The notes below the pieces were generated by a model. The model was not told where the DNA came from. It was given only the letters and a program-made list of their open reading frames with translations, and ran no database searches. From Promicromonospora sp. Populi (lineage in GTDB: Bacteria > Actinomycetota > Actinomycetes > Actinomycetales > Cellulomonadaceae): 64,000 nucleotides of DNA. This document shows, piece after piece, positions 8,106 through 57,307 of this stretch. Position numbers and translations under genes: made by a program. The stretch lies in assembly GCF_041081105.1 (NCBI RefSeq), contig NZ_CP163528.1, forward strand, positions 4,960,001-5,024,000, in the 5' to 3' direction. Numbering within the stretch: position 1 is the stretch's first letter; each line of letters starts with the position of its first letter.

Positions 8106-8121
8106 GTTGCGTATACGCAAC
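8106..8121. promoter_or_regulatory. Perfect 16-bp palindrome GTTGCGTATACGCAAC, copy 1
   Basis: A perfect dyad with no spacer, 41 nt upstream of the first gene of the three-gene small-protein cluster (start 8065, minus) and just past the 3' end of the SRAP gene. An identical copy lies at 57292-57307, 35 nt upstream of another accessory gene on the same strand. The likely role is an operator or promoter element, with the central TATAC perhaps part of a -10 region. Confidence 0.65.
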
Positions 8122-8156
8122 GATCCAACTGCAAGCGCGATCGGGTCGCGCTCGAA

Positions 8157-8912
8157 TCAGACCGTCACGGGCTCCGGGTCCCGAGGCTCCGGGTCCGCCT
8201 CGATGAGCTCCGGCCCGTTGTTCCGCACCGAGCCCACGGCGTCGCCCACCGGGAGCGTCGCCAGCGGCACGCTGTCCACCTGCAAGAGGCTCGACGCGTC
8301 CTTGACGGCCGGGTCGAGCCACGTGTCCCAGGCCTCCGCCGGCAGCAGGAGCGGCATACGGTCGTGGATGGCCTCCATCCGGCCTGACGCTGCACGGGTC
8401 ACCACAGTGGTCGACACCAGCCAGCGGTCCGGGTCGGTCTCGCTCGCCGCCGGGTTGCGCCAGAACTCGTAGAGGCCCGCGAAGGCCGCCACCCCGGCGC
8501 CGGCCGGGTGGATCCAGTACGGCTGCTTGGGGACCTTCTTGGAACCGGATGCGGGCAGCGCCAGCTTGCGCCACTCGTAGTAGCCGTCGGCCAGCACCAG
8601 GCAGCGCCGTGCGGCGAACGGCTTGGCGAACGCCGGCTTGTCCAGCAGCGTCTCGGAGCGCGCGTTGATCATCCGGGCGCCCACCGTCGGGTCCTTGGCC
8701 CAGGACGGCACGAGTCCCCAGCGCGCGAGCTCCATCGACCGTCTCACCTCGCTGGAGCCCTTGCGCGCGCGTTCGACGACGATCCGCACCGGGTCGGTCG
8801 GCGCGACGTTCCACGACGGCGGCAGCAGCCGCGCGTCGTCGGCGATCTCGGCGATCGCGAGCTCGTCGGCAAGGTCCTGGGTGTCCGTGAAGGAGGCGAA
8901 GCGTCCGCACAT
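8157..8912 (-). CDS. SOS response-associated peptidase (SRAP/YedK/HMCES family)
   Basis: 251 aa when started at the ATG of MCGRFASF; after Met removal Cys2 becomes the N-terminus that crosslinks abasic sites in single-stranded DNA, so this start is required by function and longer upstream frames are wrong. Family motifs seen: PSWNVAPTDPV, RWGLVPSWAKD, MINARSETL, RCLVLADGYYEWRK and HDRMPLLL with the conserved His. Length is normal. SRAP proteins shield abasic sites in ssDNA. CATGCT ends 6 nt upstream of the start, a variant of the leaderless box; no LexA box is evident nearby. Confidence 0.93.
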   Translation of the reverse strand: MCGRFASFTDTQDLADELAIAEIADDARLLPPSWNVAPTDPVRIVVERARKGSSEVRRSMELARWGLVPSWAKDPTVGARMINARSETLLDKPAFAKPFAARRCLVLADGYYEWRKLALPASGSKKVPKQPYWIHPAGAGVAAFAGLYEFWRNPAASETDPDRWLVSTTVVTRAASGRMEAIHDRMPLLLPAEAWDTWLDPAVKDASSLLQVDSVPLATLPVGDAVGSVRNNGPELIEADPEPRDPEPVTV

Positions 8913-8971
8913 GAGACCAGCATGCCCTGAGCCACTGACACCGGAGATCGAGATCACTCTTCTCACAGTCG

Positions 8972-8984
8972 TATCGATTCGATA
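8972..8984. promoter_or_regulatory. Palindrome overlapping the exporter's -10 box
   Basis: TATCGA-T-TCGATA is a perfect dyad whose right end overlaps the putative -10 TAGCAT (8983-8988) of the downstream exporter. A repressor binding here would block that promoter. No regulator gene is adjacent. Confidence 0.35.
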
Positions 8985-8988
8985 GCAT
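8983..8988 (+). promoter_or_regulatory. Leaderless -10 box that sets the exporter start
   Basis: TAGCAT ends 7 nt before the ATG at 8996. It overlaps the alternative ATG at 8987, which would therefore lie outside the transcript, so 8996 is preferred. Confidence 0.45.
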
Positions 8989-8995
8989 GAGGCCC

Positions 8996-54937: not shown

Positions 54938-56587
54938 ATGCACCTCGTCGCGCAGGACCTGGCCTTCGCGTACCCGGGGCGGGACGTGCTGGCCGGCGTG
55001 AGCGTCACCGTGAACGACGGCACTCGGCTTGGTGTTGTCGGCGAGAACGGGTCGGGCAAGTCCACCCTGCTGCACCTCCTGACGGGCGACCTGCTGCCGA
55101 AGTCGGGCGCGGTGCGCCGCCAGGGCAGCGTCGCCCTCGTCGAGCAGGAGCTGCACCCCACCCCCGGCCAGACCATCGGCGACCTGGTCGCCGGGACGCT
55201 CGACGGCCTGCGGGCCGCCGCAGCGGAGCTGGAGGCGGCGGCCGCCGCGTTCGATCACGGCTCGGGCGACCTCGCGGTGCTCGAACGCACCCTCTCGCTC
55301 GCCGAGCACCTCGCTGTCTGGGACGCCGACCGTCGCGTCGAGGTCGCCCTCACCCGGCTCGGCGCACCACGCGACCCCGGCCGCCGGCTCGACCGGCTCA
55401 GCGTGGGGGAGCGGTTCCGGGTCCGTCTCGCGTGCCGCCTGGCGGAGCGTTCCGACCTGCTCCTGCTCGACGAGCCCACCAACCACCTCGACGACTCCGC
55501 CATCGACTACCTCACGGGTGAGCTCGTCGCATGGCGCGGCGGGGTAGTGCTCGTCACGCACGACCGCGAGCTGCTGGACGACGTCGCCACCGCCATCCTC
55601 GACCTCGACCCCTCCTGGGACGGCAAGTCCGTGCTCTACGGGCAGCCCGGCTACCTGGCCTACCGGTTCGCCAAGAACCAGGCCCTGCACCGCTGGCGGC
55701 AGCGCTACCGCGCCGAACGTAAGCGGGCGGCGGCGCTCGCCGAGCGGCTCGACGAGTCCTACGAGGGGCTGTCGGACGAGTGGCGTCCGGCCAAGGGCTC
55801 GCAGAAACACCGCCGCGCCACGCACGCCCGGATCCACGTCAAGGCCGCCGACCGGCTGATCCAGAAGCTCGAGGCGGAGGCCATCGAGGTGCCGAAACCG
55901 CCCGTGGAGCTGGGCTTCCCGGACCTCCCGGCTATGTCGCCGGGCTGGGACCCGGCCCACCCCGTGGTGGAGGTGCGCTCGCCGCGTGTCGGTTCGTCAT
56001 CGGGCATCGGGGCCGACAACGGCGTCCGCCTGGACCTGCCCGGCACGCGGATCGCGATCCCGCCGTCGGGCCGGCTGCTGATCGTGGGCCCGAACGGCAC
56101 AGGAAAGTCGACGCTGCTCGGGGCGCTCGCCGGGACCCTCACGCTGGACCGGGGGAGCCGGGCGGTCGCGCCGGGGGCCCGCATCGGCGTCGTCGGCCAG
56201 GAGAGTGCGCCCATCACGGGCAAGGCGCGCCTGCGGACCGGGTTCGAGACGTACGCCGACGAGGCGCTGCGACTGCTCGCCTCGGGTGAGCTGGACCCCG
56301 ACCACGTGGTGCCCGTCGCGGGGCTGGGCCTGCTCAGCGAGGACGACCTGGACCGGCCGCTCGCCGAGCTGTCCGCGGGCCAGCGCCGCCGGTTCGAGCT
56401 GGCGCGGGCGCTTTTGCACGCGCCGCACCTGCTGCTGCTCGACGAGCCGACGAACCACCTGTCGATCGACCTCGTCGACGAGCTGACGCGGGCGCTGCAG
56501 GTCACGCCGTGCGCCGTCGTCGTCGCGACGCACGACCGCCGCATGCGCTCGGACCTGGAGGACTGGCCAGTCCTGGACCTGAGCTGA
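54938..56587 (+). CDS. ABC-F family ATPase (ribosome-associated/antibiotic-resistance type)
   Basis: 549 aa with two fused ABC domains and no membrane helices. Domain 1: VVGENGSGKSTLLHLL, LSVGERFRVRLACRL, LLLDEPTNHLDDSA. Domain 2: IVGPNGTGKSTLLGAL, LSAGQRRRFELARAL, LLLDEPTNHLSIDL. The linker (~250-310) is basic and helical (RWRQRYRAERKRAAALAERL), as in ABC-F proteins that act in the ribosomal E site. It could be a translation factor or give resistance. TAGGCT (54926-54931) ends 6 nt before the ATG. Confidence 0.9.
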   Translation: MHLVAQDLAFAYPGRDVLAGVSVTVNDGTRLGVVGENGSGKSTLLHLLTGDLLPKSGAVRRQGSVALVEQELHPTPGQTIGDLVAGTLDGLRAAAAELEAAAAAFDHGSGDLAVLERTLSLAEHLAVWDADRRVEVALTRLGAPRDPGRRLDRLSVGERFRVRLACRLAERSDLLLLDEPTNHLDDSAIDYLTGELVAWRGGVVLVTHDRELLDDVATAILDLDPSWDGKSVLYGQPGYLAYRFAKNQALHRWRQRYRAERKRAAALAERLDESYEGLSDEWRPAKGSQKHRRATHARIHVKAADRLIQKLEAEAIEVPKPPVELGFPDLPAMSPGWDPAHPVVEVRSPRVGSSSGIGADNGVRLDLPGTRIAIPPSGRLLIVGPNGTGKSTLLGALAGTLTLDRGSRAVAPGARIGVVGQESAPITGKARLRTGFETYADEALRLLASGELDPDHVVPVAGLGLLSEDDLDRPLAELSAGQRRRFELARALLHAPHLLLLDEPTNHLSIDLVDELTRALQVTPCAVVVATHDRRMRSDLEDWPVLDLS

Positions 56588-56671
56588 CGGTGAGAGGCTG
56601 ATTCACATTGCAGCGCTGGGCGACAGCGGCCTATTCTGGTACCAGCTCGTCGCGCTAAGCGGCGGGAAGTG

Positions 56672-56708
56672 AGCCCGAGAGCCAGCCGGACGGCTGTGCG
56701 CTCGGGCT
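56672..56708 (+). terminator. Hairpin between ABC-F gene and convergent DUF3800-like gene
   Basis: Outer stem AGCCCGAG with CTCGGGCT, and an inner hairpin AGCCG-GA-CGGCT (56684-56695). It lies 85 bp after the ABC-F stop and 10 bp from the convergent stop, so it could serve both directions. Confidence 0.6.
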
Positions 56709-56717
56709 TCGCGCATT

Positions 56718-57257
56718 TCAGGTGTCGATCACCTTCGTCACCAGCTCGTCGCAACGCGGCCGCCACTCGCCGCCCCGCGCCCACGCCCAAGCGACTGCAT
56801 CAGGCAGCGCGAGCAGCGGCTCGCTTGCCGCGCGGTCGTGTCGATAGCGCAGGGTGTTCTCCGCGTGGTGGGCCTTGGTCACGGCAACGAGAACGCTCCG
56901 GTCCATCTGGATCATGCTGTCATCGTGCTCGATGCAGATGCTCGTCTGTGCGTCCCGGAGCGCACCCGCGACGAGCTCCTCAAGGCACGACTTGCGACGG
57001 TCGGCTTCCTTGCGCCGCGGTCGGTCCGCTCCGCCAGCCCGAAAGATCGTTGCCTCGACCGGGAGCTTGGCGATCGCCGCGAGGATCTTGCGTCGTCGTG
57101 AGTCGCTCTCACGATGCATGTGCAGTCGCGCTTGGCCCGGCATCGTCAGCGACCTGATCGTGGAGCGCGCCGCCTTGAGATCCGCACTATCGATGGCAAC
57201 GGCGACCAGCAGGTAGTCGCGCGCTTTGGTCTCGTCCACGAACACATGCCCGCTCAA
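56718..57257 (-). CDS. DUF3800-like (RNase H-fold) accessory protein
   Basis: 179 aa if started at TTG 57257, where AAGGAG lies 8 nt upstream; this beats the longer frame, which crosses the palindrome. The N-terminus SGHVFVDETKARDYLLVAVA resembles the DUF3800 first strand (FxDE), followed by LTMPGQARLHMHRESDSRRR with the His-rich block, and the end LALPDAVAWAWARGGEWRPR resembles the last conserved helix. These proteins have a putative RNase H-like fold and occur as isolated accessory genes, sometimes in defence settings. Function unproven. Its promoter zone contains the second copy of GTTGCGTATACGCAAC. Confidence 0.65.
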   Translation of the reverse strand: MSGHVFVDETKARDYLLVAVAIDSADLKAARSTIRSLTMPGQARLHMHRESDSRRRKILAAIAKLPVEATIFRAGGADRPRRKEADRRKSCLEELVAGALRDAQTSICIEHDDSMIQMDRSVLVAVTKAHHAENTLRYRHDRAASEPLLALPDAVAWAWARGGEWRPRCDELVTKVIDT

Positions 57258-57291
57258 TCGAACTTCTCCTTGATGGTCTGGGTGGCGGGCT

Positions 57292-57307
57292 GTTGCGTAT
57301 ACGCAAC
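57292..57307. promoter_or_regulatory. Perfect 16-bp palindrome GTTGCGTATACGCAAC, copy 2
   Basis: Identical to the copy at 8106-8121 and 35 nt upstream of the DUF3800-like start (57257, minus). The same sequence at nearly the same distance before two unrelated accessory genes argues for a common regulator or shared promoter element. Confidence 0.65.

Follow-up and report, generated by a model that had tools for sequence, protein, structure and literature searches.

A 16-bp palindrome before scattered defence and toxin genes of Promicromonospora is a candidate operator of a single regulator

Introduction

Why should one 16-bp perfect palindrome, GTTGCGTATACGCAAC, stand just upstream of two unrelated accessory genes of the same chromosome? 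The question is raised by a 64-kb stretch of Promicromonospora sp. Populi, hereafter the window (C1:4960001-5024000 of a one-contig genome of 5,224,924 bases), which holds two exact copies of the palindrome, each identified by sequence match:

8106..8121, no strand, putative operator copy 1, perfect 16-bp palindrome
57292..57307, no strand, putative operator copy 2, perfect 16-bp palindrome

Comparison across the host genome and its relatives places such sites between genes, near gene starts, under constraint in their pattern, and ahead of defence or toxin genes from about ten unrelated families as well as of a few core genes. We favour the reading, with a probability of about 0.72, that one dimeric chromosomal regulator, probably a repressor, has the palindrome as its operator and controls a scattered and species-variable defence regulon. 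That scattered accessory genes share a regulator had been suggested in a first-pass annotation of the window; the intergenic placement of the sites and the defence or toxin/toxin-antitoxin (TA) neighbours of 33 of 67 of them argue for that idea, which is extended here by core targets, a limit to three genera, and the exchange of payload genes behind the operator.

Results

Two copies in the window and further sites in the host genome

Both copies lie where the first-pass annotation had placed them, close upstream of minus-strand genes, although the gaps measure 40 nt to the ATG of an open reading frame (ORF) of 54 amino acids (aa) and 34 nt to the TTG of a 179-aa gene, rather than 41 and 35 nt. 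They are the sole window matches to GTTGCGTATACGCAAC at up to three mismatches; two matches at that threshold were also reached by 1 of 100 dinucleotide shuffles of the window. Base composition leads one to expect 3e-6 exact copies of the 16-mer in 64 kb and 0.0003 in 5.22 Mb, and the host genome contains four copies of the inner 14-mer versus none of the reversed pattern, which served as control throughout, so that the repeat exceeds chance as had been claimed. A chance origin is ruled out by the reversed-pattern controls in the host genome and in the genus.

At up to three mismatches, 19 host sites (exact in 4 cases, with one mismatch in 5, two in 6 and three in 4) stand against 9 control matches, and the four three-mismatch sites are therefore at background. 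For the nine sites with at most one mismatch, the genes read away from them were assigned by Pfam and PADLOC scans. These genes comprise the small cluster and the DUF3800-like gene of the window, a second DUF3800-like gene, a DUF6318 gene, a YhcG_C PDDEXK gene (PADLOC PDC-S02, 4e-17), two PD-T4-5-like genes (6e-12 and 5e-15) and AbiEi with AbiEii behind it (4e-64 and 7e-124); one further site lies between a C5 DNA methyltransferase gene (PADLOC DruM 7e-203, MTase_II 2e-190) and a divergent 334-aa gene. Behind a two-mismatch site follows a ribbon-helix-helix/PIN pair, and other two-mismatch sites stand before pgsA, gntR, rpoB and a whiB-like gene and in the dnaA-dnaN region. L numbers below denote stretches fetched around sites; all genus sites are covered, two of them lying in the window. 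At L066:5564-9464, a Vsr-like ORF (named by eye), the C5 methyltransferase and the divergent 334-aa gene form a group resembling a restriction-modification (R-M) system; the 334-aa gene gave no family match and may be the restriction enzyme of this group.

Genes adjoining the sites

We tallied the 67 sites with at most one mismatch (18 exact, 49 with one change), the window's two and five from two sister genera included. The family of the nearest gene was counted by hand, with names taken from Pfam- or PADLOC-type model matches:

YhcG_C174 or YhcG355, 10 sites
YhcG359, 4 sites, one frameshifted
SatD/PycTM, 5 sites
PD-T4-5, 3 sites
AbiEi, 3 sites
type IV HNH, 2 sites
HigB/Gp49, 2 sites
C5 methyltransferase, RelA_SpoT, HmaB and CdiA_C, 1 site each
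DUF3800-like genes of predicted RNase H fold, the window's own included, 7 sites
small cluster of the window, 1 site

Sites adjoining PADLOC-defence or toxin/TA model matches make up 33 of the 67, in line with what the first-pass annotation had anticipated for a regulon, namely sites concentrated ahead of defence, TA or other small accessory genes. A control set was assembled from the same loci (97 non-redundant genes, each over 1.2 kb away from every site and with 60 bp or more of space upstream) and scanned with PADLOC at E up to 1e-5. In these genes 37 models matched, counted per model and not per protein, with 1-3 members per model among the 25 of 37 models shown and with generic regulator models (Csa3, WYL) included. 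At PADLOC values below 1e-10, 5 of 9 host sites compare with at most 9 of 97 control genes, an upper bound (Fisher p 0.002), and 10 of approximately 37 neighbouring clusters compare with the same 9/97 (p 0.01), where the cluster number is an estimate and the scan covered fewer than all 37. By this measure the PADLOC enrichment near sites is real but modest, because the controls share the neighbourhoods of the sites and PADLOC matches none of the DUF3800-like genes.

The SatD/PycTM class consists of a SatD-family gene divergent from a PycTM-like membrane gene around the operator (L209, L212 and L213, which are of the Myceligenerans type, and L100 and L167). Both matches fall below the Pfam cut-offs in Promicromonospora; in Myceligenerans SatD is above its cut-off, and PycTM reaches 2e-9 in PADLOC, just under the Pfam cut-off. 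PycTM being a Pycsar effector, the pair is possibly a Pycsar-like system with SatD in the cyclase's place.

At several loci the operator is the same while the payload behind it changes from one species to another. One of these loci is marked in congeners by the following window gene:

8157..9002, minus strand, 281-aa gene that we take to be SRAP-like from its MCGRF start

In the host genome the operator beside it is followed by the small cluster; four congeners have a DUF1016/YhcG nuclease there (L083, where the operator has two mismatches, L131, L138 and L157), a fifth has a YhcG with a frameshift (L119) and a sixth what remains of an AbiEii-like gene (L106). Of the sites opposite the MVSS223 gene, nine have a short YhcG_C gene facing them, and at one (L166) the facing gene is a full YhcG. 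Beside a Tad-like locus, named by eye, the payload is an R-M pair in the host and type IV HNH genes in two congeners. Operators are also kept beside decayed defence or TA genes, namely the AbiEii-like remnant of L106, the frameshifted YhcG of L119 and a HigB-like remnant in L173. In L066:10560-19908, L098 and L125, two sites have lipoprotein-like genes (DUF6318 and MVSS223) as neighbours, adjoining the Tad-pilus-like locus (by eye). Phages commonly use pili as receptors, and co-control of the neighbours of such a locus with defence genes would be of interest for that reason.

Placement of the sites and constraint on their sequence

None of 60 sites with at most one mismatch (L066-L174) lies wholly inside genes called at a score of at least 15, at a coding fraction of 0.85; at a looser gene-call threshold, four of the 60 touch weak ORFs. 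Scatter within coding regions, which the first-pass annotation had named as the observation that would speak against a regulon, was limited to a minority of two-mismatch genus sites (8 of 64 flagged inside called ORFs). Genes were called by a simple codon-score script, and some start positions are uncertain for that reason. In the assigned families the site lies 14-223 bp from the start, dnaN standing apart at 523-525 bp; the distance is invariably 21-27 bp for DUF6318 and is 181-184 bp for MVSS223.

The sites follow the pattern TGC..AT..GCA. When the changes in the 49 one-mismatch sites are folded onto one half of the palindrome, they fall at position 6 (21 sites), 7 (21), 2 (6) and 1 (1), and none of the 49 falls at positions 3, 4, 5 or 8, which leaves TGC and the central A/T fixed and one half relaxable in its centre. 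One half-site thus appears usually perfect, with its partner relaxed at the central G and T. A hairpin in the leader RNA was rejected as the reason for the symmetry: changes at positions 6 and 7 are uncompensated on the opposite side, several sites serve divergent genes, and the gntR site overlaps the -35 box.

Promoter context hints at how a bound protein might act. At gntR the site covers the -35 box (TTGCGT-N18-TTAGGT). At whiB it follows a promoter-like block that is conserved in the genera compared, and the site itself is present in Promicromonospora genomes and missing in sister and other genera (30 loci compared). At DUF6318 and two HNH genes it lies about 12 bp downstream of TANNNT, and the gene opposite the methyltransferase likewise has its site downstream of a -10 or promoter block. 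Since the site, wherever a core promoter is recognizable, either overlaps the -35 box or sits just downstream of the -10 box or the conserved block, the regulator would act mainly as a repressor.

Taxonomic range and core sites

The exact inner 14-mer occurs in 7 of 13 genus genomes, the host included, and its control in none of the 13. At up to two mismatches, 126 genus sites stand against 4 control matches, with sites in all 13 genomes. In a family sample of 121 drawn genomes, the 17 with an orthologue of gntR hold 116 sites (control 5) and the other 104 hold 15 (control 21). Site counts with and without the orthologue differ by Mann-Whitney at 2.6e-17 when kinship is ignored, and the six sister-genus genomes alone differ from genomes without the orthologue at 6.9e-9. 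Among genomes without it, 4 of 10 sites taken from 10 of the 14 site-bearing genomes are inside called genes, and one (L215) lies 20 bp before a helix-turn-helix (HTH) gene. Exact copies were found in 33 stretches in all, 11 of them in Promicromonospora or Myceligenerans, and beyond the group they are background-like; viral contigs contain nine exact copies. The sites are limited to three related genera, Promicromonospora, Myceligenerans and Antribacter.

Core sites at up to two mismatches recur across the genus: at the whiB-like gene in 13/13 genomes, gntR in 12/13, dnaN in 11/13, rpoB in 5/13 and pgsA in 5/13, the last counting genomes with pgsA called next to the site. The dnaA-dnaN sites, in the likely oriC, adjoin TCCACA-type repeats 523-526 bp before dnaN in those 11 genomes (L073:6160, L093, L130, L145, L151, L162 and L165 among them). 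A MerR-type gene, recognized by eye, is found 76-87 bp away from a site in three genomes, two of Promicromonospora and one of a sister genus (L135, L141, L206), and is absent at the corresponding host site (L068).

Alternative explanations

Given the recurrence of a site at gntR, the encoded 239-aa GntR/UTRA protein (G000:C1:3411812-3412528; Pfam 2.7e-19 and 1.8e-24) was at first favoured as the regulator because of the co-occurrence of site and gene: it would autoregulate through the palindrome and repress the defence genes. All 17 close orthologues of gntR (121 family genomes, three genera) have the palindrome at positions -56 to -41 with up to three mismatches; as described above, 12 of 13 genus genomes have it there at up to two, and sites are common only where the orthologue is present. 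We nevertheless regard this assignment as unlikely. The gntR site has three mismatches in G001 and in some sister-genus genomes, and a different element lies between the -10 box and the start of gntR:

L072:5795-5804, TGTCTAGAGA before gntR; sole copy in the genome, also before distant GntR relatives

The element is found less than 60 bp from the start in four of five more distant relatives that share the VARMTAR recognition helix of this GntR protein and in none of those with VARATAR. The VARMTAR relatives share TCTAGAGA instead of the 16-mer (4/5); the identified relatives at their identity level are mostly from Streptomyces. Upstream of 29 more distant GntR relatives no 16-mer-like site was found at up to six mismatches. 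The cited passages on the HutC subfamily of GntR regulators (PMC4494728) describe typical operators with GT and AC four bases apart (GTMTAKAC). The gntR gene here resembles that subfamily in carrying an operator in its promoter, and TGTCTAGAGA nearly fits the rule; the 16-mer does not, and failed the half-site spacing test as GT-N2-AC or GT-N12-AC. TGTCTAGAGA is probably the autoregulatory operator of this GntR clade, and gntR is consequently more likely a target of the palindrome-binding regulator than the regulator itself.

A less probable alternative still, to which we give little credence, is that a promoter cassette containing the palindrome recombines between hot spots together with its gene, so that the sharing would reflect common promoter descent and not an active regulator in common. 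The promoter at 8106 and the YhcG promoters are indeed alike beyond the 16-mer, and payloads have been exchanged behind the same operator at several loci. However, the flanks of most other families lack shared sequence by eye, sites also occur at whiB, rpoB, oriC and gntR, and changes are restricted to few positions. Least probable by some distance is a site that is primarily a chromosome or replication element, its placement at defence genes being secondary: it does lie at a fixed distance of 523-526 bp before dnaN, near TCCACA-type repeats, in 11/13 genus genomes, but there is one such site per genome and none at up to two mismatches in G002 and G003, and nearly all other assigned sites are 14-223 bp before genes.

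Genes behind the two window copies

The region downstream of the first copy and the gene downstream of the second comprise the following features:

8066..8105, minus strand, leader from operator 1 to the ATG, sharing GGTGGCGGA and CCTCTACAGGCTT with YhcG promoters (alignment by eye)
7901..8065, minus strand, 54-aa ORF, first in the small cluster, without family (family scans)
7741..7908, minus strand, 55-aa ORF, GTG start overlapping the preceding stop, no significant family (family scans)
7427..7744, minus strand, 105-aa ORF, weak helix-turn-helix match below cut-off (HTH_AsnC 3.8e-5, profile scan)
56718..57257, minus strand, 179-aa DUF3800-like gene, RNase-H-fold model with predicted local distance difference test (pLDDT) score 94.5 (relatives and structure model)

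YhcG promoters with both GGTGGCGGA and CCTCTACAGGCTT are found in the host genome and in congeners (alignment by eye). The cluster at 7427-8065 consists of three small overlapping ORFs and had been called toxin/antitoxin-like in the first-pass annotation; the family scans returned no toxin or antitoxin family match and only the weak HTH match in the last ORF. A toxin/antitoxin-like nature is plausible.

The 179-aa gene had likewise been called DUF3800-like. It has no match in Pfam (at E up to 0.1), NCBIfam or PADLOC, so that the Pfam model itself does not back the call; 1 of its 63 database relatives is named a DUF3800 domain-containing protein, and its structure model resembles RNase HII (best PDB match 1eke_B, E 1.8e-4, template-modelling score 0.60). 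An RNase-H-like fold is typical of DUF3800, and the protein is plausibly an RNase-H-fold nuclease.

Discussion

Taken together, these comparisons suggest a model in which one dimeric, chromosomally encoded DNA-binding protein binds the palindrome. Costly or toxic accessory defence genes would be held low until a signal releases them jointly, and new defence genes would enter the regulon by landing behind an operator or by acquiring one.

Several points weigh against this model. The regulon is not purely defence: 11 of the 67 tallied sites are at DUF6318 lipoproteins, 6 at dnaN, 3 at TPM and 1 at an S10 peptidase, and 5 are without a homology-assigned target, the L106 and L173 remnants recognized by eye being among these five. 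Many sites are orthologous, so the independent events are far fewer than 67; for defence, the count of families (about ten types of defence or toxin gene) comes closer to their number than 33 does. The idea that a -10 box generally precedes the operator was rejected: of 22 family representatives only 3 have TANNNT 10-24 bp ahead of the site, which leaves one common repressor geometry unsupported. Regulation is read from sequence here, and no gene could be assigned as the regulator. Two actinobacterial MerR-type regulators, FtsR and McdR, were considered and set aside by eye. McdR controls whiB2, and a whiB-like gene carries the site here, but the motifs in the cited passages (a 25-bp inverted repeat and AATnACAnnnnTGTnATT) do not match the 16-mer (PMC6683498, PMC9040748).

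How many scattered, often toxic defence systems are coordinated is an open question, and the transcriptional regulators described so far act mostly within one island. Gac/Rsm acts post-transcriptionally. In Pseudomonas it offers a likeness as one pathway for many scattered defence factors, although the cited passages describe no DNA operator common to its targets (PMC11888443). BrxR (PMC9122601) and CapW (PMC9122588) are WYL-domain repressors of defence systems and thus, like the regulator proposed here, transcriptional repressors tied to phage defence, BrxR binding inverted DNA repeats; those passages describe each as a product of the same island or system that it regulates, whereas the present sites are at scattered, unlinked loci with no adjoining regulator gene. 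RptR represses R-M and TA genes through palindromic sites, but as described in the text cited it acts on its own island, with a minimal TAGCTA site in repeats as opposed to a single 16-bp palindrome (PMC12255303). For a global GntR regulator DasR is a precedent (PMC4918961), and NolR is reported to affect Hna without binding the Hna promoter (PMC12445080), each according to the passages cited. Neither TTGCGTATACGCAA nor, in the parts available, a common DNA operator of scattered unrelated defence genes was found in the open-licence literature searched.

A bolder form of the proposal can be put forward only tentatively, at somewhat less than even odds. A core-chromosome 'immune repressor' of a type not yet described would hold a genus-wide, horizontally variable arsenal of restriction, abortive infection, toxin-antitoxin, nucleotide-signalling and nuclease systems under a single operator, would domesticate new arrivals that come to lie behind it, and would read oriC, rpoB and whiB, coupling immunity to replication and division.

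Although a regulon is a known kind of thing, the content of the one proposed here is unusual. The operator could serve as a search tag for defence genes: by their position behind it, the DUF3800-like genes of predicted RNase H fold, the cluster at 7427-8065 and the 334-aa gene become candidate defence genes. It also gives a direct handle on the protein that binds it and on the signal that would release it. The shared palindrome before unrelated defence and toxin genes suggests that one regulator may control much of the immune arsenal of these soil bacteria together.

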